A program made the position numbers and the translations under genes. A DNA stretch of 64,000 nucleotides from Tetraselmis striata. Taxonomy: Eukaryota > Chlorophyta > Chlorodendrophyceae > Chlorodendrales > Chlorodendraceae. The DNA is taken from contig VCJN01002960.1 in the NCBI GenBank assembly GCA_006384855.1, positions 1 to 64,000 of the forward strand, written 5' to 3'. Under the pieces are notes generated by a model. That model was not told the origin of the DNA. It was given only the letters and a program-made list of their open reading frames with translations, and did no database searches. Of this stretch, positions 10,923 through 61,837 are shown piece by piece (the first letter of the stretch is position 1; each line of letters opens with the position of its first letter).

Positions 10923-11050
10923 CCCTGGGTACGATCGCAGAAATTAGAACGTCAGTGACTTCACGTCGGCACCGGCTCAGGGAGTAACGGAGCAGCCAGC
11001 ACGCCCCGCGCCGCCCCCACGATCACAATTCCGACGCTCACACAGGTAGC

Positions 11051-12232
11051 ATGGCGGGGATACAGTCGCACCTGCGCTCCGAGGCGGGCATCGACGCCGA
11101 CGCGCCGGTCGCGGCCGTGAGGGGCGGCTGCTCGGAGGTGTGCCCAGGGATGCTGTGTGGCCCGGGCTGCCCAGTGGATAGCCGCACCGCCGTCGCAGCC
11201 GCCGGCACAGGCAGCCTCCCCATGCTCATGACATTGTGGCAGCTCGGTGTGGAGCTGACTCCGGCGGTGGTGGTCGCTGCTGCGGCGGCGGGGCACCTCG
11301 ACACGCTGGTGTGGGCGCACGGCGCTGGCTTCCCGCTGTCCAACCTCGCCGCCGAGAGGGCCGCCGCCGCCGGCCGCCTCGACGTCGTCACCTGGCTTAC
11401 GGCGCACGCCTGCCCGCACGGACCACGCGTATGCGCCGCAGCCGCCTCGGGTGGCCACCTGGCCGTGCTGCAAGCCCTGCGGGCATCGGGCTGTCCCTGG
11501 GACGCTGAAACGACGTCGAGGGCCGCCGGCGCCGGGCACCTCGACCTCCTCGCCTGGGCGCTGCAGAACGGCTGCCCCATCACGGCCGACGCCCTCATCG
11601 AGGCCGCCGCTGGAGGCCACCTCGACGTGCTCCGCTGGGCAAACTCGTTCCGATGCTATATTCCTTGGTCTGATCGCTGCTGCAACGCCGCGGCCTGGGG
11701 TGGCCGTCTGGAGGTTCTGCAGTGGCTCGTGGGCGAGGCGGGCATGGCGATGGGGCAGCGCACGACAATGCGCGCCGCGCAGCAGGGCCACCTCCACGTC
11801 CTGCGGTGGGCGATAGATGCCGGCTGCCCCTGGAGCGCGTCAACGTGCACCTCGGTCGCCATGGCAGGGGGGCACGTGGAGGTGCTGGATTGGCTGCGCA
11901 AGTCCGGGGCTCTGGACTACGATACCCTCCAGAAGGAGACTCTCATCTGCCGCGACGGCCTCCGGCACAGGGACCGCGTCATGGCGTGGGTTGCCACCAC
12001 TTGGATGACGGATGCGGGGCTCGCAGCGTCCTATATGGGCAAGCCCCGCGGCGTGGGGGAACCTCCACGCGCCAGCAACAATACGCGTAGCTCGGTTCGA
12101 GACAAAATGACGACGACTGCACCCGCAGTGGGGACGGCGCAGCCAAAAACGGCGGAAATTCGAAAGTCAGACGAGATGCCATGTGAGAGAAGACAGCGAT
12201 CACAGCAGGATAGGCGACTGATTGCGCTGTAA
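11051..12232 (+). CDS. Ankyrin-repeat protein, single exon, 393 aa
   Basis: About nine 26-28-residue repeats occupy residues ~45-290. Each carries the core Ala-Ala-x-x-Gly-His-Leu-x-x-Leu-x-Trp, several followed by Gly-Cys-Pro-Trp or Gly-Cys-Pro. This is the ankyrin variant common in stramenopile and giant-virus proteins; ankyrin repeats are protein-interaction scaffolds with no catalysis. The C-terminal ~100 residues are hydrophilic, Arg/Ser/Thr-rich and without a known domain. There is no signal peptide or membrane span, so a cytosolic or nuclear location is likely. The frame stays open a little upstream of the chosen Met, which was taken because it follows the TATA box at a sensible distance. 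AATAAA overlaps the stop region (12233-12239). Third-position GC is very high, as in the neighbouring DUF789 gene, which faces it tail to tail. The exact partner is unknown. Confidence 0.85.
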   Translation: MAGIQSHLRSEAGIDADAPVAAVRGGCSEVCPGMLCGPGCPVDSRTAVAAAGTGSLPMLMTLWQLGVELTPAVVVAAAAAGHLDTLVWAHGAGFPLSNLAAERAAAAGRLDVVTWLTAHACPHGPRVCAAAASGGHLAVLQALRASGCPWDAETTSRAAGAGHLDLLAWALQNGCPITADALIEAAAGGHLDVLRWANSFRCYIPWSDRCCNAAAWGGRLEVLQWLVGEAGMAMGQRTTMRAAQQGHLHVLRWAIDAGCPWSASTCTSVAMAGGHVEVLDWLRKSGALDYDTLQKETLICRDGLRHRDRVMAWVATTWMTDAGLAASYMGKPRGVGEPPRASNNTRSSVRDKMTTTAPAVGTAQPKTAEIRKSDEMPCERRQRSQQDRRLIAL

Positions 12233-26690: not shown

Positions 26691-29600
26691 TTACTCGTCG
26701 CGTTTTGTTGTGAGGGGCTGCGCCTCGTCCTGCTGGGTGCTGACGTTGGTGGACGTGCTGGCGACGGGCCCCAGATTGCGCGACGACTTGTTGGTCCCGC
26801 TGACGCTGCGGCTGACCTCGATCTCGTAGTGCGCCAGGTTTGCCTCCACCTGCGCAAGAGCGCACTCAGCCCACTGGCAGCCGGCAGAGCGGCGACATCT
26901 AGTAACACCCACAACTGCTTGCAAGCTTATTGTTGATCAGTGCCAAGCCCAATGCCGGGCCGCCATCCGCTGCCGACAGGCCAACACATCGGGCGAGCGG
27001 TCACCTGCTCCAGGAGGGGTGCGCATGCGGGGAACACCTCCACCCACGCGTTGAACAGCGGCAACACGATGACTTTGAAGAACCCAACCTGCGCAGGCGC
27101 CGGCCAGCGTCAGCTCAGGGTGCCACATGAAATGCACCAGGCAACAGGGGCAGGGGGCGGCAGGCGATGGGGTGTCGGGTGACGAGGATACACACCTGAT
27201 TCTGCGGTGCGCTTGCCCTAGTAGAGTGAAGTTGGCGGCAGGGGGTGGAACACAGGCGCAGCATGCCGGTCAGCGACGGCGTTGCAGTGAGCAAGCGGCC
27301 GGATTGGCACAGCATGCCGTTACATCAGTTAATTGGGCCCACAAAAAAGCAATGATTTGGCTTTCGACATACAATCTACACATATTATTACATAGATATG
27401 TAAGTATCACATTTAATTATATATTATATATTGATACATATAATCCAGCGAAGCGTCGATTTTTCGGCGGTGAGCTTTATTGCCGTACGGGTACCTGTAT
27501 AGTGCAGCGGAACGGGCCTATAGGTGCATGACTAAAACGCTTATCTACTGGCATGTACTACTAAGTACTATAATCAACCCGCCTGTCCGCCCGCCCGCCC
27601 GCCCGCCCACCCACGGTTCTTAATTACACAGCTGTCCGATTACGATCTCACGGTTGGGAGGTACTGGTACTGGTACTCGCTACTCGCTGCTGGTAACGGG
27701 AAAAAAATGGTGCTCGCTAGTCGTCAAAAGCGCTTATCTACTGACATGTACTACTAAGTACTATAATCCGGTGGAGCCGCCGCTCGAAACGCTGCGCCAG
27801 ATGACTTCTATGCAAGCCACACGCGAGTTCCTACTAGTCGCTACTTCAAAGCGCTGGCAATGCAATTCATGGAACTGTAGGCCAGTGATATAGAACCCGT
27901 TCCTTTAAAATTTTCTGAAAAATCTACGCATCGCTGATTCAACTGTCAAGTTACTTCATATATTAATATATGTGTAGCGGTGTGTATGCATGAACAGCAT
28001 CCAGTGATCCCAACGCATGGTTAGGGTATGGCGGTGGGCGTGCGGTAGGGGCAGGCATGCGGTCTGTTGGGGCCGGAGGAAGCGTGCGCACCCTGGCAGA
28101 TCGCGGTCCATCAGCGCCGAGATGGGGCTAATGCCCGCGGCCCTCTCCAGATCACCCTGCCATCCGCGAGCCCCACAGCTCCCAGTCAGTCGTGCTCAGC
28201 CGGCAGAGCCCTGCTCCAGGGCAAACGGTGAGCGCCGGCACCGTGGTGGCCGGCGCAAGGGGATCCACCTGGGCGAAAAACTCGTCCTCCAGGCGCTTCA
28301 CCCACTCCACGTGTATGTGCATCGGGAGGGCGCAGTGCCCGATGTCCGCCACCTGGCAGCCGGCAAGCATTTCGCGGTCAGCAAAGCCGGCGGGGCGGGC
28401 ATTTAATCGGGTCCGCAGGCCGCACGAATCATGCGTGGTTTGGCAGCATTGACCGGGAGACTCCATTTCATAGTATCTGTGGTGTGTTTTGACATTTCCA
28501 GATAATCTTGAGTCTTTCATTCTTCGCGAGGGGGGTCAAAAACAACAACACGTATCGAGCTCGAAACTTGTCTGCGTTAGATGCCCAGTAAGGCCCCTCC
28601 CGAATGCACACCAGGTGCGCACCTTGAGTGCCATCTGCAGCACCAGCATGCGCTGCTCGTCGTTCATGGTGTTCCACATGGCCGGGATGCCGCGCTGCAC
28701 CAGCTCCTTGTTCCGCTGCACCTTCGTCTCAAACTTGTTGAGCAGGTCAAAGTGCTGGCTCATGTCCGTGGAGAGCACCATCTTGATCACGCTGCTGCGG
28801 AAGCGCTTGCGCTTGCTGGCCGTGCTTTTGGAGCTGCTGGGGGTGGGATTGGAGGACAGGAACGCGAGGTTGTCATCGCGGAGCAGCTTCATTGTCTCGC
28901 GCAGCGCATAGTGCTCCGCTACGGCCTGGTCGTTGAAGTCGTAGGCCATCTCCGTCTCCTGATCAATCTGGTACTGATTGTTCACCTGCGGGTGGCCTGC
29001 AAAATTGCATGCGGCGCACGCTGTCAGCAAGTGATGTCAAGGCGGCATGTGCCATGTAGGGCGGGCGGAAATGCTGGAAGCGGGGCTCCTACGCGAACCG
29101 TTAACCATTTAATCCGCGGAGCTATAGCCAGGTCGTATTATGACGATAGCATCCGCCAGCATATAGCATTCTTCAAAATTAAGAGTACAATTACTCAGAA
29201 TCCTTTCAATGTAACGACGAGGAAGAGCGCGCTGCCAGTATTACACGCCTAGAGCAGCACACGTACCTGTACAGTACTCGTTTCCATGACTGCTACCCAC
29301 TGGTACCAGTGCTAGCTACGGCGAGCTGGCACCCCATTTCTGAGAGCAAACTATGGATTCCTATTACTATAGTAAGGTCGGAACCCGTGTATTAAAAAAA
29401 TAGCCTCCATCTCCGTACCTGGTGCACTAATTACCATAACCCTGAAGCTGGCCTACGGACCAGCAGAAAACCGGTAAATAAATAAGGATTTCATTATAGT
29501 CGGCGGAATCCTGCCTACCTGTTCTTCCACAAAATAAACTCCCACCTGGAGTATTTTTCAAGAGGGTTCTAATCGAGGTTTGCACCAAAACAATACCCTT

Positions 29601-32600
29601 ACCCTCGACCCTTGAGCCGATCCTCGCCCCATGCAGCTAGGGTGGTTCTAAAAGGTTATGCGCCAGATTTCGATCAGGCGATGGTCAGGCGAACGGCTCA
29701 ATAATATACAACATGTCAGATAAACAAATATAACGGCAAAAAGAGACCAAGTCGAAATAAGCCGATGTTGTTTGGGAGCTGAAAGTCGAGCCCTCCTCCA
29801 GCCCGCTTCCAAATTGCCTGATCGGGGTGGCTTAGAAAGACAGGAGATGGCAGGGAATGGCAGGGGCCGTACCGTAGTCGTGCACCATCGCCGCAACCAT
29901 CCCCAGCAGGCCAACCTGCGGTGAGTGCGCCTTCCCGGGTGTCAGTTGCAGGTCGATGAGGTTGCTGTGGCTCAGGATGGCGAGCAGCCGGTTGGTCACA
30001 TCCGCGCCGTGGTGCTTGCAGTGATCTGCATGGGCACAGCGGCATCGTTCCATCAGGCATCCAGCCACTGGGCCACATAGCCCCCCCCCTAGTTTTGCAT
30101 CCAGAATGCAGAAGGCGGATTTAACACCTCAAGCAGGTGACCATACGGAGAAGACTCAAGGAAGGGTAATAAAATCCGAAGGATGAGTAATAAACTCCAA
30201 ACGTAATAAATAAAAGAAAAACAGAAACAACACCAAACATGACAAATATAATGTAATGTCTGTAATACTGGAATACAATACAAATACATAATAAAGACAA
30301 AATAAAACATGTTTTTAACAAACATATTTTTGACAAACATAATAAAGACAAAACAAAATAATACAGAAATTATGATAAAATCATAAGATAATGTATTGCT
30401 AAAGAATACACCACCATCACTTTTTTGGGGGGGGGAAGGGGGGGGGGGGGGGGGGGGGCTCACATTTCCCTGCGAGGTAGCCCTCCTCCACCGCTGCCGT
30501 GAATTGCATGAGGCGCTCCTTGGCTGTCGAGGACGTGAGCAGGCGCAGGGACTCGACGCCCTGCTCCACCACCACGGACAGCGGCTCCGGGTGTTCGAAA
30601 AAGTAGGAGCGCGGGGTGACGAGGTCCAGAAAAAAGTCGGCGCCGATCTGCTCCTGTACATGGACCGTCAGGCGCATCAGCCGCTGCGAGCGCGACTGCA
30701 CGGCGATAGGCGGCCGTGCGGGGCGCTCTCCCACACCGGCGCAGTCGTCCTCGCCGTCGCTGGCCTCCGCCACGCCAGGCAGCGATGCTGTCCGTGACGC
30801 TGCGCTGATGTCGAGGGTCGACACGGAGTCGGTGCGCAGGGACGAGGAGCGGCGGCCGCCTCCCCTCTGCATGTTGGTCAGCAGGAAGTTGCGGATCCCC
30901 GCGTCAACGGCGCTGAGCGATAGGCCGGCCTCCAGGTCGGGCACCTCCAGCGCGCCGCTGTGTGACACGAGCAGCGCCTCGAGCCGCGCCGCGTCTGCGG
31001 CCGAGGGGCGCCGCAGGATGCCTTGCTGGTAGCGGCGCAGAAACTCGAGCGTCTTTGCCATGGGCGAATCCAGGTCCAGGCCAGCTTTTGCCTGCACAGG
31101 GGGGCAGGCGGGAATTCCCGTTAGAGGTTGCGCTAGAGGTTAGAGGTTGTTAGGGTTGCCTCTAGCTGGGGCCTCTAATTGGTCAGGTGGGGCACCGCCA
31201 AGTGAAAGCGAGCCGCACCGCACACCATATGCAGGTGTGTGTGTGTGTGTGCGTTAGTGTGCATTCGTACGTGACGCCTTGTGGCAATGGTTGGCGCAGC
31301 CGCTCACCTGGCTCAGGAGCGCGGTCACATGCCGCTTGAGGTACTTGTTCCTTGCGAAAAGGCAGGCGCTCAGCGCGCAAAGCAGAACCACAACCACTCC
31401 GCAGGCGGCGAGCACCGGTACGAGCCACGTTCTGCTTTCGGCATGGTCAGAAGGCACCTGTCAACGCAGGCGCACAAATAGGGGGAGCGGGGAGAAGGGG
31501 GGTGTAGCGGTCTCAGCATGTGGATCTGCGGCTCTGTTTTATGTGGCCAATGTCAGTCGCGCACACAAACCCTAAAAACCCTAAAGCAATGACTGAATAT
31601 GTGACCTCAATACGCGGGGAAACGGTGTGGTGAGATGGCCAGCGACGGTGACGCCGCTTACGTAAGGGTACTGGCGTCCGTTGGCCCACACAATAACTTC
31701 GTCCTCGACGATGGTCAACTGGTACGTCCCGAGATCGATAGTCGCCACAATGGCAAGCCGCGCCTCGCTGGCTCCGCGGGGGGTGCCGTAGTTGCCAATT
31801 TCGATGTTGGTGTGGTTGAGATCCCAGTCGCCGTTGGAGAGGTAGCCGCGCGGCCCGATCGTGCCTTTAAAGACCGGGAAGAGCCCCTTCTCAAAGACGC
31901 CGGCAACGTCAGTGCCCGTCGGGATGGCCCCGGGGGCGTCCATGGCTCTGGCGGCGGCGGCAAGGCCAACCGCCGCGCTCCACACGGTGTCGTACATCTG
32001 GAACGCAAACAGCGTGCCCAGCGCCCCAAGGACAGTAGAACTCTGGTTGAATATCATCCCTGCCGCGACGCCAAAGCCTGCGGTAGATGGAGAATGTTGA
32101 GGAGGCACAGCTGAATCAGCAGTTTGGACAGCTGGGATGGCAAACTGCGATGCTTCCCCAAACACCGCGACATTCAATTGGGCACCCGGGTCAATAATTC
32201 ATTCTGGACATGACAATAGAAATACATGGGCTGTTATATAAGAATGTAAGTTCTTTCATCGAAAACAATGAATTCTTTGGCACAAAGTAGCCAGAGATTC
32301 TATGAAACAGTAATGGTACCGGGTTAGGGATTTAGCTATAGTTCTATGTATATGCAGTACCTTCTCGGGAAGGGGGGGGGGGGGGGGGGGACAATCATAC
32401 ACACCTAACCCAAATCATGGTCACTGTAGCCGCAGAATGGGACAGTAGAGTGTGAAGGCTTGCAGCAGTGGGGGGGGGGGAGCATGGGAAATGCTTACCT
32501 GGGGTGCTCGTGTTCATGGCCGACAGCGTACGGGCTGCCAACTCCTGTGAGGGCACGGCGAGGAATAACCCCTGCACAGCGAGGTGGGGGTTGGGGGTGG

Positions 32601-32602
32601 GT

Positions 32603-32635
<33 letters not shown>

Positions 32636-35600
32636 GTGAGACAGAGCCGGCAGCCCACTTGCGGGCCAGTCCATAGGGAGGGCAATGGGATTGCACACAT
32701 AGTTTGGGCACATAGTTTGGGCGGACGCACGACAATCCCGGGATCTGTCGTGATGGGAAACGAGAAGTCGGCCCCTTGCAGCCCCTCGATCAGCTTGAGG
32801 ATTTCCGGATCGCCGCCCCTCTGCGCCATATCCACAATGGGCTGCGCAGTTCGGCAGCCTTCAGCGATCCGACCCAAAGTGATGCTCAAAATGGAGGCGA
32901 TGGGGGGGGGGGGGGGAGGGAGAGGGGGCTGCCGTCGTTACCTGTATTGAGCCTCCGCCATTGATCCAGGTGTAGGAATGGTAGTCCACACCCTCGTCAT
33001 CCATGGCATGCTTCACAGTGCGCAGGCCCTCCAACACGGTCTCAGCCCATGCAAACATCACAACTATCTGCATCCCCAGCAGCACGGGACACCACCCACA
33101 CAGTCAGCCACCCCATCCCGTTGCCACCGGGGGCAGGGAAAGCCCCGCTACCGGCGCATGCACTGGTGCTGTGACGCAAGGTCGCGGTGAAGATGGCCAG
33201 CGTGGCTCGCCTTGGTGCCAGTGTTCATGAGCTGCCCTGCGGCGCGCTGAAAATCTTCCTCTGTCTGTGTCCCGAGGCTGATGGTGTCCACCTCCAACTC
33301 CAGCCCAGTTGCTGTCTGCGTAAACACCTGGGTACCAGCAGTACGAGCCCATGAGCCGCCTCGCCTCTAGAAGCACGCCCGCATTCAGCGACCTCCCTTC
33401 AATGCGGTGGAAGCGCATCACAGGTGCAGGCCTTACCTCCGCCTGCTGCGCACCAAAAAGGTCCTGCCTGTGCACAATCACGACCTGGGCGCGCCGTCCA
33501 CCATGTCAGTGGGGCAGTATAGGCGGAGGCTGTCCGGTGGCAAGCAAGGGCGCAAGGGGCACATGCCGTACCCGCGACCATCCCATGCTCTTGATGTAGT
33601 ACGCCAGCGAAATGCTCAGCTCTGCGTGGTTGGCGCTTGACCTCGCAAAGTTGGGGTACAGGTCCTGTGGCATACCCACACAAAGTGCATCAGCCACCTG
33701 GCGGCGTCAAGCACATCGCCCAGAGGCGATACTCTCCTAGGCACTCGTAGTGCTATCACCAATGCTAAGACACACGAAACAATATGAGATGCAAACACAT
33801 TATCAATTAGGTGAGTTGTTGTCATGTAGCGCTGGGCCAGTCAACAACTGCAGCACATAAAGCGGCCTGGCAGATAACAAGAGCAGCTGCACATGCGGCT
33901 GCATATGTGCTCTCAGAACTCGGCCGCCAGCTAAGAAACCATGATGCGTTGGGGGAGGGGCACACAGGGGGACGGGGGTGGGCGGGGCACATGGCGTGTC
34001 GACCGGAAGCCCCCCCCCCCCCCCCCCCACCCCCCAGTCGAGTGACGCCGGCATGCCGACAGGGATTTTCGGGGAGAAAAGCGCGCCGGTCACTGCATGC
34101 GCGCTCGCCCGGTCACGGTCCACTGGTCTTGGACAGGGTCCACTGGTCCTGCGAGTGTATGGGCGTGCACTACACCGTTGTCTCTCCGCTCTAAGCGGCG
34201 ATATGGGCGCAGCTACCGGGCAGACGAGCCCGCTCCACAGTGGGTGCTTGCGACCACCTGACGACAATATAGCTGTTACCATAATCACTCTCTGGGTTCG
34301 CAGTATATCATCGCTCTTAAACCCGGCGAACAGGAAAACGTTTTAACCGGAAAAATTTCAGAATACACCACGAATGCTCAACGGAGAGTCCGACTTGTTG
34401 GTGCGAAACAATTCATTTTTCAAACCCCGAACCGAATTGAATGTTGTAGTGTTATACGGAATCGATGGAATTTGAGATGATGACAACGCGTGTTTAGTTC
34501 GCCCCCGGGAAATGACTGGCAACAGTGTGTCATTTATCAACACTAATCATAGAAAAGTGTGCAGCGCCACTGCCGGTATCTACGGGCTGAATCACCTGTT
34601 GGACCGTATTACACTTGCATACGATCGTGACGGATACGGCATGTGAGAAAAAGGCAAACACTACGGCAATGCAGCGGGAACATCTTTAAAATCTCATTCT
34701 AGATGTTTCACAAGCCCGCAGCATTCCCGTACGTTTCTATATTTATCCGTGACCATTATGCGCAGGTGAAGTACGGAGCGGTTTGCGAATGGAAAGCGCA
34801 ACGAATCGCCGGGAGCGTTAGCCCGCACTAACACCTGGAGTACAAATGTTCAGGCGTCTTATGCGTCAAGCCCGTTGCCACATTACGGTGCGGGCGTCCC
34901 CACAGGGGTTGTGGTCGGGCTGCATATCCTGATACAATTACGCACCCGAGTATTTCCGACTGCCTGCCGGTTGGCCAGAATGAATGAGCGGTTCCTTGAA
35001 CACTGCCCTGCATGTGGCGGAAGTGAATCTGAGACTATCGAACATATGTTGGCGGAGTGCCCGCGGTGGGGGTATCACCGTCATAGCTTTCGGTTGTTAG
35101 TTCCGGAGTTCAGGGATTTTATTAGTAGTCAGGTTATTGCGTCAACGCCGGAGGACTTAACTGCCTTTATTTTGGGCGGGGTCCCCCCATCCCTTCACGT
35201 CGCCCTGGATTTTACTGGGAATGGGAATTTTTCCAGTTATGGCGTCGGGCCCTCCCTCACATTGCCTTCTTTGTTGCACACGTATCGCACTCCCGAAATG
35301 CTTTGCTCCGCGGGTTGGGGCCTGCCCCAACTCGCATTACTCGAATGGGCCGACGCCCAAACGGGTAGGGCGGACCTTTCGTGGTCAGTGCCGGGTATTT
35401 TGATGGCAGTGTTTTAGACGGTGATCCAACAGTGTTGGAAATTCCGTCACTGGCCTCCAATTAGTCTTGCAGAATGCTTCGGCAATTTGCTTGATGACTA
35501 TGACGGAGCGTCGCCTACCCAGGGCTTTCCGTAACTTGATCGTTGCCTAAAGGGCCGTCGTAGAGACGCTATATGGGTTTCAATATTGCCAGCCCTGACC

Positions 35601-35870
35601 CGGGGGCGAAAAAAACTGTAGGCTATGCCACAGCCTCTGGCGAGATACATTCCCGATATATACAGGATATCCCGATATAGTAGTAGGATGCATAGTTTTA
35701 TCCACCCGTCGGCCTCTGATGCTGGCCGGACTGGCCGTCGGCTGCCCCCGCCGCGACGCGCATCTCTCGTCACGTCAAACTAGTGTTAGCACTTACAGCC
35801 CCCCTGATAACGGCCCGGTAATTAGCTTGATAATATTAGCGACTAAGATGCGTTCCCATACAACGGTGTT

Positions 35871-35902
<32 letters not shown>

Positions 35903-36693
35903 TGGTGGTACGTTTTTGTACGGGTACCGTGTACTGCCGATGACGCAAGGATGCACGGACATATCACTCTCGAGCATGTCATTCGGGATATTGTGAGACA
36001 TGAGAATCGTCATCGCGTCCCCTTGCAGTGGAGGCCGGACCATGCGCACGGCGACATGGTGCGGACGGCCAACGCACCACCTACGCGATGCACAGCCAGC
36101 CCCTCAAACTGCAAAACCACTCAGCACCAACCAAGTCCTCAACAAATTACCCGTAGCACATGGCAGGTACCGCACTGGCGCGCGATGTGGCGCTGTGAGG
36201 TAGACCGCGCCGGTAGCGTTGGATCTGGCCCTGTGGTCAACGCCCCGCGGTCGGGGCGATGCAGAGGTCGCGACTAGCGCGGCACCGAAATAATAGCCGC
36301 TGAGCGAGGGGCTCGCAGGGGGAGCACTCACTCCCTTTAAAATTTTGCTTCAATGTGCTACAAGGGAGGTGTTGGGGGAGCTGTGTCATTGACCGAGGGT
36401 TGGGAGGTAGTGGGGGCCGATCATCGGCTGTCGCTGTTGGAAGCGCGGCCGGGCGTCAAGGAGCGACAACCGGGTTGGCCGCTCAGAGAACCTATGTTAT
36501 CTTCGCTGTATGCTAGAACTTGCGAAGCTGGGCTGGTGGGCAGGTGGGTCTGCCCCGTGCAGTACCGTGGTGTGGGACGAGATCTTGGCGGATGCCCCCG
36601 CTAGGCCCGAGCAGTGACGCGTTGACTGTCGGGTATATATCGATTTTCCTGTCATCGAAGGAAGTGTATTTCAAGAACTATGTTCACGTACCA

Positions 36694-36726
<33 letters not shown>

Positions 36727-39047
36727 GCATCTTGCCCTGTATAGAATGAACCTAACAGCTTTTATTGATGACCGACGCGACTCACCTAGACTCATCCTAG
36801 GATTATGAGAAAATGCCCAGGGAGAGGTTGGCGGCGGGGGGGGAGGGAGGTTGGCGGGGGGGATGGGGGGGGGGGGGGGGGGGGGGGGCTTACTCTACGG
36901 GAAAGCGCGGGGCTCACAGCGTTGGTTGACCAGAGAAAGCGACCTGCGCAGCGACAAGGGCGGTTCAATTTCTGAGCCTGTGTGACACTCAGCAAGGGCT
37001 AGCCTGTGTTGATTGAGGTAAAGCTCGCACATGAGTACTCGAGTGAATAACAGAGCGCTAGCATGTACGGGTAAGAGTATGGCATATGAATTTTCTGGTG
37101 ATTTCCTGATCGCCTTTCGCAGCTAGCTCATGTAATTATATAGTATGTCATATAGCCAACAGAATAAAATCACGGCATCGGATTAGGCGGGTCATTCTAC
37201 TTTAGTTCATTCGTTAGCGGGGGGGGGGACATCGCGATTTTTTATAGTAAGCGTTCTCTGTGTAATGGGACACAGTACCATATTACATTTACTGTAATTT
37301 AATGTGACCAAAAGCAGTAGCGCAGCAGTCGCTAGTACGTTTTCGCCGCGATTCGCGTGATGTGTGCTGTCGTTCCAGCAGCTTGCGTACATTATTGGCT
37401 TTTCAGGTGTGCCCGCGCGGTAGTAGTGTAGTGCAGTGACGGAGCAGTACCAGTAGTAGTACGTACAGCGGTGCGCCGTCACCAGTAGTAGTACGGCGGG
37501 GAGGAGCAATCAGTAGTAGAGGAGCATATTAATATGATTACATGAGCTAGCAGCAGGAGGCGATATCAGGAAATCACCACAGCAACTACTACATAAGCAA
37601 CTCCACAGCAACTGCGAGGTGGAAGCAGTAGCAGGAGAAGAAGCAGAATGGGCACGAGCCCACGCATCTCATCCAGTAGAGGAGCATCTCATCCATGAGA
37701 GTGCTGGAGGCGGGGCGCGCGCGGTCAAAATGGTTCCTCGCGGGTGTTCGTTCTCAACTTCGGGTAATATATTATAATGCTCTGGGTCGATATGGTATGG
37801 CATGTAATATGACACGTCCAAAGCGCGGAGGATCCGTGGATGGCACACAGCGAGAGCCTACGGGTATCGTATGCAGCGACAATATCGTGAGAATTTCCGC
37901 CGCATCACACAAGCGACTACCGCTAAAGCTAGCGCGGTATATTTCTTACCCGTGTTAGTTAGCAACCCGTAGCGCGGTATATTTCTTACCCGTATTTCTT
38001 ACCACCGACCTGTTGTAATATTCACCAGTATCCGGTATGGTACTGTCACGCGCAGTCCCAGTAAAGTACTACAGGGTAGGACGCGCGGCGCGTAGCCCGA
38101 CAACTACAGGTTCTACGGGTTCTGGTGTGAATTACAAAAAGGGCAGTAACAAATCCACCTACAGGGTACTGCTAAAATCCAACTACAGGTTCCACGGGTT
38201 CTGGTGTGAATTACGGGTTCTGGTACGGGTACCAGGTACCTGTACTACCTGGTAGTACCGATACACCGCTAACGGTGCCAATTACAAAAAGGCCAGTTAA
38301 AAATCCACCACTAAAAGCAGTACAAAAATATGAACTGGTCGGCAGCGACCATAAATCAAATAAAAGCAGTACTAGCGACTAAAGATCAGCAGTACTACAG
38401 GTATACGTGTACCTGTGCTGGTACTGCGGCACCGCCTTTCCGGTACCATAGGGCAGAGGCGGGTGGATATTTCATGTGCAGTAGTAGCTCTACAGGATTA
38501 CTGGACGCCCGCCCTAAGCGAGTTGGCGGAGGGTGGGTCGCGGCCTCGAAGGAAATTCGACGAGGCGGGGGACACCTCGGCCTGGTGGAGGGGACTCACC
38601 CAGTCCGCTTATAAAGCTGACCACCTGACTTGAAGGCTCGGAGGTGAACGTCCCCACTAGTACCTCGGCGTCTGTTTCCAAACATGCGCGCACAGCTTTG
38701 GCCGCCCCCTGTGGGGAAAGGTAGTCGAAGCCCTCGACGTACGGCGAGATCTGCAGCCGCCGACCGCCACCCATATCCAGCAACTGCTCGCAGCCCTCGC
38801 CGAGCACGCGACAGTCAGCGGCGTTGATGTGATCGACGGCAAGGAACAGGCCGCGAGCAGTCTCTGCTGCCACGTAAGGCCAGGGCGAATCCAGAGCCGA
38901 GGTCAGCGGCAGCATCATGCACAGGGGCACCGGCGTCGGCTGCGCCGTGGCCGGGAACGACAGCTGAGCGAGCGCCGCGCATGTCAGAGCTGTTGCCACC
39001 GCGCGGAGACTCTTCACCCGCCAGCACGCGGGGCGTCGGCTCGCCAT
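26691..39047 (-). CDS. Receptor-type cyclic-nucleotide phosphodiesterase, 18 exons, 1090 aa
   Basis: Predicted to hydrolyse cAMP and/or cGMP under control of an outside ligand. Exons (minus): 39047-38600, 36943-36894, 33664-33572, 33484-33437, 33327-33211, 33067-32942, 32841-32731, 32571-32499, 32077-31614, 31457-31308, 31091-30464, 30025-29873, 28996-28623, 28352-28269, 28156-28092, 27217-27196, 27088-27005, 26873-26691. All phases agree and the total is 3273 nt. Residues 1-36 look like a signal peptide (Arg-rich start, Ala/Leu core, Ala-Thr-Ala-Gln). Residues ~38-500 resemble a type-I periplasmic-binding/ANF-receptor fold (Leu-Tyr-Pro-Asn-Phe-Ala-Arg, Met-Gly-Trp-Ser-Arg, Lys-Ile-Val-Val-Met-Phe-Ala, Tyr-Asp-Thr-Val-Trp-Ser-Ala-Ala). 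One span lies at ~520-545. The PDE domain keeps the class I metal site: His771, His775, His818-Asp819, His822 and Asp948, plus the purine-clamp Gln1002. Nucleotide preference cannot be read from sequence. Intron 5 uses GC-AG; introns 1 and 2 hold transposon debris. Confidence 0.9.
27196..27217 (-). other. 22-nt microexon (exon 16) of the receptor phosphodiesterase
   Basis: The preceding exon ends GATCTGCCAGG (phase 2) and the following one begins GTTGGGTTC (phase 0), so exactly 1+3n nt are required between them. At 27217-27196 (minus) an AG|...|GT-bounded 22-mer, GGCAAGCGCACCGCAGAATCAG read without its last two letters in most exon finders, supplies seven codons ending Pro-Gln-Asn-Gln. This gives Asn-Gln-Val-Gly-Phe, the conserved class I PDE motif whose Gln binds the purine. 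Confidence 0.8.
30438..30463 (-). repeat. Poly-C run fused to the 5' splice site of exon 11
   Basis: On the coding strand the donor reads AAAT|GTGAGC and continues directly as a 21-nt C run. The same arrangement occurs at 36893 and 18156 and at 16173 in other introns of this window. Confidence 0.85.
34831..35420 (+). pseudogene. 3' remnant of a non-LTR (LINE-type) retrotransposon ORF
   Basis: A 180-codon frame includes Leu-Arg-Thr-Arg-Val-Phe-Pro-Thr-Ala, followed by a zinc-knuckle-like cluster, Cys-Pro-Ala-Cys-Gly-Gly ... His-Met-Leu-Ala-Glu-Cys-Pro-Arg-Trp. This is the usual C-terminal signature of LINE reverse-transcriptase proteins (CPxC...ExxxHxLxxCP). No RT domain remains upstream, as expected for a decayed 3' fragment. 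It sits antisense inside intron 2 of the receptor phosphodiesterase gene. Confidence 0.65.
35865..36730. repeat. Inverted pair of (ATCGTC)n microsatellites with matching flank
   Basis: Plus strand: (ATCGTC)5-6 then ATTGGTGGTACGT at about 35869-35912. The reverse complement, ACGTACCACCGATGACG(ATGACG)n, lies at about 36686-36727. The shared non-microsatellite flank GGTGGTACGT shows that this is a true inverted repeat about 0.8 kb apart, within intron 2 of the receptor phosphodiesterase gene. Confidence 0.75.
37548..37682 (+). repeat. Copy of the 44.7-kb repeat
   Basis: AGGCGATATCAGGAAATCACC ... ACTGCGAGGTGGAAGCAG ... AGAATGGGCACGAGCCCACG matches 44729-44852. It lies in intron 1 of the receptor phosphodiesterase gene. 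Because the second copy borders a retroelement fragment, this may be a retroelement end. Confidence 0.75.
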
Positions 39048-57039: not shown

Positions 57040-60000
57040 TCAAACTTGGCTTGGTACTGCTGCTGCAGTAACGATGACTGGTGAGCTTGGGGCATCATCA
57101 TGGGCACCACCCCTTGCGATGCTCTCTGTCACGGGCAGCAACATCAGGCAGCCATACGCACAGTCAGATCATTTCAATGGATCCCTAGCAGTTCCAATTC
57201 TTTACTCCGCCCTTCCTGTTGAGTGGATGCAATATTCACATGACAGTCCGGCATTGACAACACATCTTAAGAGGACGAAATAACATTACTTAAATACTTT
57301 ACGTTGTATGGAAATTTGTCCCGGTTTGTCGATCCGGTAGTGTATGTGTGTCCTGTCGATCCATTACGCCATCGATCCGTTAGATGATCCGCTTTCCTCT
57401 GTGAAATGACTGGTAAAAGTACTACCGACGGAAGAAGGTTACCCCCCCCCCCCCCCCCCCCATCACACACACACACACACACAAGACGATTGAAATTAAT
57501 TGGGGAGAGTGTAGAGTAATACCGGCATAAAACCAGCATCAGCATCGGGCGTACTGTGTCACTTACCGCATGCAATTGGTGTATCAATCTATTGGTTGTT
57601 GTCTAAGTGGCATTTAAATTTGATTGTTTTTTGTTGTAATTTAATTAAGACTGCTATGTGTGTTTTATCGTTTTGAAATACAATCTTATGTTAACGAAAC
57701 GAATAGCGTTGTACCCTTTGGTATAGGGTGAAAGATTGTTGTACCCAAGGTAAGGGTATTACCTTTTAATCCTTTATAGCCGTAGCCAAACTAGTATACA
57801 CACATGAGCAATACGTAAGTCAGGTGGCGTGAAAAAACTGCATAGATGAGACTGGCAAAGACAGGATTGCTCACCCAGCTTGGTCGCCACGCCTCGGGCC
57901 GTCGCCTCAAGCTCCGCTGTGGCAGAGGGCCCAACCATCCCAGCGCTGCCCCTCCTCTTGCAGATGATGATGGCACCGGCGATGGCGAGCGCAAGGACAA
58001 CCGCCGCTGCGATGGAGACAGCCATCGCGACCACATTGGTGCTGGGCGCAGAGCTGGAAGAGTCCATGGCGTCTAGGTCAGTCACAGGGCTGTCGATGCC
58101 GATTGTTTCGCCCCCTCCCGCGAACGGGTCCGCCTGGTCGCCAATCACCTTAATTTCCAGCTCCTCGTACGAATCCCGGTACGTCACGCCCTGCACAATC
58201 GAATTGGGAAAGTACTGCGGCGCCACGTCCGCGACGGTGACCTGCGCGTTGGCCACGCTGACGTCGACGCCCGGCTGGAAGCGCAGCAGGGCCAGGCTGT
58301 CCTTCAGCTGCCCGGACGACACTGCGTCCACCGTACGGTTGCCGAGCAGCTGCGCGTGTGCCCGGGTCTCGCCCAGCAGAAATACGTTGATGATGAGCAC
58401 GTCGTCCTCCTGAGCAGCAGCAGGGTAGCATGGGGCGTGTTCTGTTTAGTGGGCCGTTGCCATCGTGTGTGTGCCCGCAATTATCCGCAGCCATGTGTCA
58501 TCAAATTACCAACAGCACAGCCCTGGCCCAGTTTCTGCGAGCTAGCGTACAGGTACCCAGCATTATTTAGTTTGAATTTTGGAATTTGCGACCTTTTGTT
58601 CTTCATGACTAGCTCACAGGAATCGAAACGAGGACTGCTAAAGTGCTAGAAAATATCAATTCCTTTAAATTGCAAACCGCAATAACCCAGCGAGCTTCCT
58701 TTCAAGCTGGATGTATACCCATAACATTAAATCGGTTGAAAAACAATTAAGTGTTTTCCAGCAGTCAATCGGAAGATCCGTGTGATATTTGCGGTGTGTT
58801 CTGATGTATTCTCACACAATTTTGTTCTTCGCTCTTTGCGAGGAGTCAAAACGATATTATTCTGTGAGCCGAAAGCGTGCTCATTACGGTAGGTGGCTTC
58901 CCCAGCGAATAGCAATAGATGTATTAATGATATGTCGATCCCACCTAGATTTCGGCCAAAAGTGGTTTAATCGGCGAATCAAAGACAAATCGTTACATAA
59001 GTGCTTTATTTTGAGTGCGATTGGATTCAAGTTAAAGAGAATTTTTTGGTACACAAGAAATATAAAATTCAGTACACTTTGGAAGCGAAAGCAGCAAGTG
59101 CCTTACTTCGAAAGTCTACATCAATCAAATGCATTAACAAAGACAAGTATTACATCCGCAGGCATAAGAAAATCATATCTGATACTCAGCAGAATACAGC
59201 GAACCCTCTGAAAGAGAAACAATTGTTGATTCGTTTGGTCCTTTCATAATCATAATGTTTTCCAGAAAAAAAAAGTATACACAAGCGGGGCCAAAAAAGA
59301 CCGGCCATAAGGATCGTTTATTCTATAGCCCAATAAGCTAATTGATCAAATGGTTTCATAAAGAACTCTAAGTCAGACATGACTGGTTTCGAGGTGAGGC
59401 ATTGGCGCAGGATCGCACCAGGCCCCGATCCTGAGTTCGTGCCAGCCGTTCGAGGGTGGCGGGCAGGAGAAACTCCTTGAAGATTCCCCACTGCATCCGG
59501 GCCTGGACTGTCGTGGTGTTGAACACCACCTGCAGAAAGCCATTCGGACTGCCGTACGCGGCGTGCGCCACGGCCTGCGGAGGCGATGACCGCTGTGCTG
59601 GTCAGTAACCCGGCCAGAGAGTACAGCAGTTGCTGATCAGATTACCACCACCATAGTAATTTGGTGTTGGTGAGTCTCAGTGGGGAGCTTCATCCTCATT
59701 TGTGGTAATGCAATTCATCCACAGTACATACCTGTCTGAAGTACAGCTGCTGCAGCGGCGTGAACTGGGTCGTCGTGATGTTCTCCAGCACCAACGTCAC
59801 CTTGGCCTCATACCCCATCATCCTAAAGCTTTCATCCTCGACCCGCACGCCATTGACATTGTCAGGGATGGTGTCCACATCCAGTGTCGGCACAGGTGTG
59901 GCGGTGGCGTTCTCCGGGAAGTCGCTTTGGGTCATCGGAGCGCTCAGACCGTCGTTCCAGCACCACAGGCTGCCACCACACCCCGAGCCCAGCACGCAGA

Positions 60001-61375
60001 GGTTCGGTGTGCTGTGACATAGCTCCGGGCCCTGGCGACCGTCGGCGCAGCTGCTGCCGTAACTGCAGAATCCGGTCCTCGCAGGCTCAGTGGGCTCCGG
60101 CGTCGCTCCGGGCGGCGGCTCGTAGTTGTCGGGCGAAATAGTCTGCCCGATGCCGTCCCAACGGCACCAGGTACCCTTGCAGTCGCCGACGCAGTGGTCG
60201 ACGTCGCGGTTGCACCACTGGTTCCCCTGGATCGTGCCGTCGCAGCCGTTCCAGTTGCAGTAGCCGCCGTCGGGGTCGACGTCGATAGGCGCCCGCAGGT
60301 TGGCCATTCGCTCTTGCTGCACCTGGGTCGGCGGGCGCGGGATGCGGTAGCCGCTGCCCGGTTTCCAGTCGCACTCGCCGGTGCTGGAGTACACCCACAG
60401 GTCGTTGGGCTCGCCAACAGTGATCATCAGGTGACCGTCCGGCGTAAAAGTGAGCCCCTCCACCATGTTGTCCCGCACTTTCACCTTATCAGATATCGTC
60501 CCATTAAAACTGACACGGGCCACGTTCTGGGTAGCCTGGGAAAGGACGTACAGGCCCGAGGAGCTGTTGGCGCGGAAGTAGGCGCCAGCCAGGTCACGCA
60601 AGGCCGGTTTCCACACACTCCCTTCGCCGTCCAACACCGCGACGGCGCTGCCGGAGCCGGGCGACACCTTCCAGACCTGCATCGGCATCATCTCCTGCAC
60701 CGCATAAAACACGTTGTTCTTTAGGTCGTAGGTGATGCCCTCGAAGCAGAAGTTGGTCTGGCAGCGGACGCCGCGCAGCATCAGCTTCCGCCGCATAACG
60801 GCCGAGTCGCGCCACGGGACGAGGTCCATGATCGATATCGCCGCCGTTGCGCGCCCCTCCTGCGCTACGGCGAAGGTGTAGTCGTACATCCAGGTTATGC
60901 CTGCAGCGGGCGTGTTGGCGGCAAAAAGAGGTTCAGGCTCGACCAATGCGCCCACACAACTCCGAAACGTAGTGAGCGACGGACATGTTATCATTAAAAA
61001 AATACCCGTATGTACAGCGAAAATCCATCCAGACTTCGCAACGAATATCGGAAAACGGTGGAAAGCTCGCAGCTTACCTTCGGGGTCGCTCAGGTCGTCA
61101 TACGGGATCGAGCGCAGGCGCTTGCCCTCGAGATTGAACTCCACCACGGCGCGCGGGTTGCGGGTGATGACGTATAGGCTGTTTGTGACGGGGCTATAGG
61201 TGATCCCGCTCGCCTCGGCCGGCACCCCGCTGAGAGGCACATGCCGACAGAACTCGTAGGACGTCAGGTTCCACGGCGCCCCCGATACCGCGCCCAGCTG
61301 AAGAAACGCCGCGCCCGCCGCAAACAACGCGGCATACGCCGCGCGCCTTTTTAGCAGCTGCCTCGAGAACGCCAT
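57040..61375 (-). CDS. Membrane-anchored SdiA-regulated-type beta-propeller protein
   Basis: Exons (minus): 61375-61078, 60900-59732, about 59574-59419, 58409-57875, and an uncertain terminal exon near 57125-57040. The first junctions are phase-consistent (GAAG|GTAAGC...CTGCAG|GCATA). Residues 1-~32 are a signal peptide. Residues ~40-300 match the SdiA-regulated propeller family: Glu-Ala-Ser-Gly-Ile-Thr-Tyr, Leu-Ser-Asp-Pro-Glu-Gly, Phe-Glu-Gly-Ile-Thr-Tyr-Asp and Val-Glu-Gly-Leu-Thr-Phe-Thr-Pro-Asp-Gly. Then come two or three Cys-rich modules (Tyr-Cys-Asn-Trp-Asn-Gly-Cys; Trp-Cys-x-Trp), two SEA-like alpha/beta segments, a membrane span at ~666-691 and a basic stop-transfer Lys-Arg-Arg. It is probably a surface sensor or wall-contact protein; ligand and signalling output are unknown. 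The exon 3 donor (59418) and the C-terminal exon (two open frames) are the weak points. An AT-rich island fills intron 3. Confidence 0.75.
60901..61077 (-). other. Stop-free 177-nt intron of the propeller gene
   Basis: GTAAGC...CTGCAG intron, a multiple of three and open in frame, so retention would insert 59 residues. The insert falls inside the conserved Asp-Pro-Glu-Gly-Ile-Thr junction and would split the propeller motif, which supports splicing as the normal outcome. Confidence 0.75.
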
Positions 61376-61723
61376 CGCGTCAATATAGGCTGTGTCAGTA
61401 GCAGGGGCGCGGCGAGTGTAACCATATAACGCCGGTGGCACGAACGAAATGAAATAGCCTTCCTTCTGCCGACCTTACCCGTACTCTGTACACTCTCGGA
61501 GCCGACAAGGGCTCGAGATTACGTAATGATTACGCCATTTGCTACCACTTGTAGTCGCTACGTGGTGCATGCAATACCCCTGGCAATACTGTATTCGGCT
61601 CGAGGTAAAAACACAGTCGGGTACACGCACACTGAACGTACAGATCGTTAAACTGTTTTATCAGCAGCCCGCCGAATCGACGCGAGATGGTCGCGGCCCA
61701 GGTTCGGGCGACACAGCGCGACC
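61376..61723. other. 5' flank of the propeller gene
   Basis: No TATA box in the minus orientation is evident. TAGTCGCTACG-type words recur as elsewhere in the window. Confidence 0.4.

Positions 61724-61805: not shown

Positions 61806-61837
<32 letters not shown>
61724..61837. repeat. G24 run and C29 run on one strand, 61 nt apart
   Basis: 61724-61747 is pure G and 61809-61837 pure C. They could form a 24-bp G:C stem. The same G-then-C arrangement exists at 1988-2066. Confidence 0.9.

Follow-up and report, generated by a model that had tools for sequence, protein, structure and literature searches.

The window analyzed here comprises positions 1 to 64,000 of contig VCJN01002960.1 of the green alga Tetraselmis striata (C2388 in our numbering of the contigs of the 224-Mb assembly). 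With a probability of about 0.8, we read a gene on its minus strand as encoding a single-pass receptor phosphodiesterase (PDE) with a Venus-flytrap sensor, putatively ligand-gated and one of some nine related loci in this alga. The family of single-pass receptor PDEs is real and apparently undescribed so far. No description of a protein joining an ANF_receptor ectodomain to a PDE (ANF-PDE) was found in the open-access journal papers searched; the architecture itself can already be read from the Pfam assignments precomputed for proteins in the databases.

The gene extends from an ATG at 39047 to a stop at 26691, and its 18 exons (3189 nt with stop, 1062 residues) are separated by introns that sum to 9168 bases (Table 1). 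All exon phases agree, and the sole stop in the joined frame is the last codon, whereas the other two frames contain 34 and 15 stops. The exon number, the two ends, and the agreement of phases had been proposed in an initial annotation of this DNA and are borne out by the joined frame, in which a loss of frame was looked for and seen at no junction; the 1090 codons given there, derived from a slightly different exon set, are replaced by 1062. The introns have GT-AG ends in 16 of 17 cases and GC-AG ends in one (after exon 5). At the base composition of the gene, 1062 open codons would be expected by chance with a probability of about 1e-13, and third-position GC is 0.81, compared with 0.53 in the introns.

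Exon 2, of only 50 nt, interrupts a 4.9-kb gap separating exon 1 from exon 3 that without it would be a single intron. It was located by scanning this gap with the matching stretch of four relatives, and the best placement scored 26.5, the runner-up scoring 13.75. The exon is bounded by AG and GT, its phases fit, and its inclusion raises the ANF_receptor score of the joined protein from 29.6 to 51.7 bits.

Table 1. Features of the receptor-PDE gene and of its second intron (window positions)
Feature	Position	Strand	Basis or remark
Exon 1: ATG, hydrophobic N-terminus, first part of ectodomain (residues 1-149)	38600..39047	-	GT donor; aligns with the database relatives P0001-P0004
Exon 2: 50 nt, GRFLWSTNAVSPALSRR, region in which relatives carry the SxAT-type ligand motif	36894..36943	-	similarity scan
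Exons 3-9: remaining ectodomain, residues 167-490	31662..33664	-	intron positions as in P0003
Exons 3-6	33664-33572, 33484-33437, 33315-33211, 33067-32942	-	
Exons 7-9	32841-32731, 32571-32499, 32077-31662	-	
Exon 10: membrane span and start of cytosolic stalk	31308..31457	-	hydropathy maximum
Exon 11: juxtamembrane linker (LDSPMAKTLEFLRRYQ...) and stretch preceding the catalytic core	30464..31091	-	partly conserved, 7-row alignment
Exons 12-18: class I PDE catalytic domain and C-terminal tail	26691..30025	-	PF00233 match
Exons 12-15	30025-29873, 28996-28623, 28352-28269, 28156-28092	-	
Exons 16-18	27217-27196, 27088-27005, 26849-26691	-	exon 16 is a 22-nt microexon
Reverse-transcriptase-associated (zf-RVT) open reading frame inside intron 2, outside the receptor frame	34770..35414	+	20.9 bits, under the 27.5 cut-off

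A Pfam search with the joined protein identified PDEase_I (PF00233; 199.4 bits, cut-off 24.8) at residues 750–1011, covering profile positions 1–238 of 238, and ANF_receptor (PF01094, Venus-flytrap; 51.7 bits, cut-off 25.4) at residues 112–395, in keeping with the two domains that had been predicted. No further family was found at E ≤0.01, including any kinase-like, PF00211 cyclase, or rhodopsin domain. When ten single-exon open reading frames (ORFs) were searched instead, only the PDE scored above cut-off. The single membrane span proposed initially is recovered as the one strong hydrophobic segment, although at approximately residues 501–525 rather than 520–545: among 19-residue windows, the 12 of highest hydrophobicity begin at 498–509, the next being much weaker, and the basic residues RNKYLKRH come after the span. 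The N-terminus is hydrophobic, and the signal peptide proposed in the initial annotation was assessed by eye.

The metal-site and catalytic residues of the PDE are all kept in the alignment (H751, H755, H798, D799, H802, D928, and Q982). Among these, by PDE4 numbering, we take four to be the metal ligands (H, H, D, D), one the catalytic His, and one the Gln that holds the purine ring. The initial annotation had named the same residues with numbers that were each 20 too high (e.g., His771 for H751 and Gln1002 for Q982). The equivalent of PDE4 Asn321, which contacts the base, is a His in 7 of 7 aligned rows, and a preference for cyclic AMP (cAMP) or cyclic GMP (cGMP) can therefore not be read from the sequence.

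On the ectodomain side, the solved chains nearest to the profile are taste (T1R), glutamate, calcium-sensing, and GABA-B receptors (best 60 of 218), and the matches listed in a profile search were P0001 and a GABA-B receptor. In a predicted model of P0001, the ectodomain consists of alternating strands and helices at good confidence and the span region is a single helix (523–558); a structure comparison with this model listed PDE chains only.

That the ectodomain, the span, and the full class I PDE form one protein, as the initial annotation had supposed, is upheld by these domain scores, by the introns of an annotated paralogue, by single ORFs in related proteins, and by additional loci of the same genome. 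The paralogue, P0003 (jgi/Tetstr1 TSEL_021501, 1041 residues; Tetstr1 is, we presume, the portal name for Tetraselmis striata), matches contig C1502 free of mismatches apart from two residues at joins, 332 and 717, that the script passed over. All 17 introns of the window gene have counterparts in P0003, 15 of them within one residue, in a comparison with this one family member that used a greedy exon-end script and an alignment and considered positions, not phases. The intron after exon 8 is three residues off, beside an alignment gap, and another is two residues off where the script overran the join, the match of the next exon beginning at the expected residue 951. P0003 carries one extra intron, after residue 780.

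Related proteins were collected in two database searches, in each of which scoring was limited to the 8000 candidates with the most words in common. Both domains occurred in one protein in 7 of 13 matches in the first search and in 8 of 54 in the second, giving nine distinct database proteins with the architecture that the initial annotation had suggested looking for in other proteomes. P0001 and P0005 are 97% alike, and four of the nine bear Tetstr1 names. P0007 is an ORF holding both domains on an MMETSP transcript, and two further ORFs lie on sequences of transcript length (P0001, 1107 codons on 3804 bases; P0015, 1124 codons on 3821 bases), each leaving fewer than 500 bases, as against 9168 bases of intron in the window gene. 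We left P0017 (901 codons on 3757 bases) and P0016 out as transcript proof of both domains. The latter, a partial MMETSP sequence from Tetraselmis sp. GSL018, has only the PDE above cut-off, and its N-terminal part, by eye, resembles the final portion of the ectodomain together with the membrane span.

To survey the genome, 16 loci were examined by tblastn for matches to the ectodomain, the span-linker, and the PDE. Ectodomain and PDE matches were found at 11 of these loci, and matches to all three parts at 8. Three likely allelic pairs (C1031/C436, C1114/C1552, and C1825/C1968) were merged, the pairing being an assumption from near-equal match patterns, which leaves eight loci and, with the window, nine ANF-PDE loci, seven of them clear and two weak. 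Four loci match annotated proteins (P0002, P0003, P0004, and P0006). At C1836, C251, C1378, C578, and C2195 (5 of 16), no ectodomain match was found within the stretch examined; on C1378, a contig of 19.7 kb, the PDE is up to 98% like P0002, a likeness to P0002 similar to that of C1031 and C436.

Chlorophyta are known to possess class I PDEs (PMC4858519). In a tree of 58 PDE domains (57 from database proteins and that of the window; P0014, a GABA-B receptor with no PDE domain listed, was excluded), the ten ANF-PDE rows and P0016 form one branch (100/99). The features by which we define the family, namely both domains in one frame, a PDE on this branch, and intron positions in common with P0003, are all found in the window gene. 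The branch adjoins a group consisting of P0008–P0011, the 15 rows being held together at 100/99, and next out are two Chlamydomonas incerta proteins, P0018 and P0034 (93/90). The tree was midpoint-rooted and so does not give the direction of change.

These nearest PDE groups differ from the ANF-PDE proteins in their N-terminal regions. In P0018, the class I PDE is combined with a CHASE domain (27.6 bits, cut-off 25.0), and P0034 is placed with this protein by similarity. A hydrophobic stretch and an extended N-terminal region characterize P0008 and P0009; when these two were scanned, P0009 gave EGF-like matches under cut-off and P0008 none. An LDSPL-type linker following a hydrophobic stretch is likewise shared by P0008, P0009, and P0010. 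The view in the initial annotation that cytosolic regulators are the usual partners of class I PDEs has to be qualified, since rhodopsin-PDEs, the CHASE-PDE P0018, and P0008/P0009 exist.

From the anatomy of the protein, it can soundly be inferred that an extracellular ligand would tune the breakdown of cyclic nucleotides inside the cell. The protein would form a dimer in the membrane of the cell surface or flagella, and a small extracellular ligand would close the flytrap and thereby alter how far apart the two membrane helices lie or how they are twisted. Through the stalk helix, this change would reach the two PDE domains of the dimer and alter the rate of cAMP and/or cGMP hydrolysis, such that the second messenger is removed on signal, or spared if the ligand inhibits.

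Several points weigh against this reading. Dimerization is an assumption, and in the model of P0001, part of the linker through which the signal would have to pass has a predicted local distance difference test score (pLDDT) <30. In the genome, C1825/C1968 and C1990 have weak ectodomain matches (53–72 bits) and lack a span-linker match, the ANF_receptor match at C1825 and C1968 being slightly above cut-off. The other points bear on the ligand site and on the state of this particular copy.

With regard to the ligand site, the Thr of the SxAT motif, presumably the ligand-touching residue in flytraps that bind α-amino acids (mGluR-like), is replaced by Val in the window copy, and an amino-acid ligand is therefore less likely for this protein. 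At this position, P0001, P0002, P0004, and P0007 have T, P0003 has S, and P0006 has E; the ligand of the window copy probably differs from that of several sister proteins. The same variation (T, S, and E) and the Val of the window copy would also fit an architecture that is real but in which the ectodomain is a structural or dimerization module, or binds a partner or serves adhesion, with no gating of the PDE by a small ligand. The GABA-B2 subunit, which functions without binding ligand itself, provides a precedent. However, in the family members that were scanned, the ANF_receptor match extends over a large part of the profile, the motif Thr is kept in four of six aligned relatives, and some nine diverged loci fit a diversification of ligands, and we consider an ectodomain without ligand gating fairly unlikely.

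As for the state of this copy, its ANF_receptor score is the second lowest of nine ANF-PDE proteins scanned (51.7 bits, compared with 44.8 for P0006 and 62–126 for the other seven), and it has the GC donor after exon 5. No near-identical full-length protein was among the matches listed for it, the best being P0002 with 58–59% in the best local stretch. Together with the transposon-like sequence in intron 2, which scores under cut-off and is probably a retrotransposon remnant, these observations could indicate a paralogue in decay, whose protein is not produced any more or has lost its function. Decay is improbable in view of the 1062 codons kept open, the difference in third-position GC between exons and introns, and the full set of catalytic residues.

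Because the exon joins were made manually and guided by similarity, two adjacent genes, a binding-protein receptor (39047–31662) and a PDE (31091–26691), might have been wrongly fused, but this was rejected as extremely improbable given that the span exon is flanked on either side by in-phase GT-AG junctions, and given the matching joins in annotated P0003, the transcript-length or transcript-derived single ORFs of P0001, P0007, and P0015, and the co-occurrence of all three parts at half of the 16 loci. A receptor cyclase or a RhoPDE is ruled out by domain content, and a bacterial contaminant is ruled out by the 17 introns and by the annotated algal protein that matches the same assembly.

Elsewhere in the window, a 592-codon open stretch on the minus strand (59699–61474) contains an SdiA-regulated domain (PF06977, 80 bits) in one frame, and an ankyrin-repeat ORF lies on the plus strand (10988–12229). 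The window also contains 13 homopolymer runs of C or G, 26–59 bases in length (e.g., 1–59, 30427–30458, 32593–32634, 36836–36888, and 61809–61837), three of which lie inside introns of the receptor-PDE gene, near splice sites.

If the receptor reading is true, extracellular sensing would be wired to cAMP/cGMP in a second way, via a compact ligand-gated PDE, with implications for environmental sensing in unicellular green algae. Such an enzyme might also be usable as a chemically gated tool to lower cyclic nucleotides in cells.

Receptors that make cyclic nucleotides upon binding of an outside ligand are textbook knowledge. In receptor guanylyl cyclases of the ANF/NPR type, an ANF_receptor ectodomain and one span are followed by a kinase-like domain and a cyclase. 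The window protein is like these receptors in its ectodomain, its single span, and its cytosolic cyclic-nucleotide enzyme, but their output consists of the kinase-like domain and the cyclase, whereas that of the window protein is a class I PDE. A locus resembling an animal receptor guanylyl cyclase in architecture occurs in the same green alga. On the minus strand of C1671:136500-142500, two ANF_receptor stretches are followed by a hydrophobic stretch, then by a kinase-like domain, and finally by guanylate-cyclase stretches, the locus being known from these domain stretches on the contig. By eye, the kinase-like part has HPN and TQYG in place of HRD and DFG, the motifs of active kinases, which are also absent from the corresponding part of receptor guanylyl cyclases in animals. 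ANF_receptor stretches were also seen at C2622:27000-33500, followed by an ephrin-receptor-like cysteine-rich stretch, and at C1933:141500-146500, where four lie close together and may represent tandem flytraps or two genes.

The ANF-PDE receptors and the ANF-guanylate-cyclase locus of this genome possibly form a push-pull pair. It is slightly less likely than not that green algae have a receptor class in which the PDE rather than the cyclase serves as the receptor, one PDE lineage having been coupled to Venus-flytrap, CHASE, and other sensors. In Tetraselmis, an expanded set of about nine flytrap receptors might then oppose a receptor guanylyl cyclase whose ectodomain is related to theirs, which would allow direct push-pull control of cAMP/cGMP by extracellular chemicals.

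Class C G protein–coupled receptors (T1R, mGluR, CaSR, and GABA-B) have a similar ectodomain, but the window protein lacks their seven-span domain and carries its enzyme in the same chain. Among single-chain receptors that destroy cyclic nucleotides on signal, we know only of the light-driven RhoPDE. In RhoPDE of Salpingoeca rosetta, according to PMC12558739, a rhodopsin is fused to a PDE that hydrolyzes cAMP and cGMP under the control of light. RhoPDE and the window protein both couple a membrane sensor to a PDE, the sensor being a multi-span rhodopsin in the former and a Venus-flytrap on a single span in the latter. Receptor cyclases with flytrap ectodomains occur in animals and trypanosomes, and the receptor-type adenylate cyclases of trypanosomes have outer Venus-flytrap domains, a single span, and an inner cyclase, as outlined in PMC6027212. 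These trypanosome receptors make cAMP and mostly have two flytraps, whereas the window protein would destroy cyclic nucleotide; it would run the scheme of these receptors, and that of the receptor guanylyl cyclases, in reverse.
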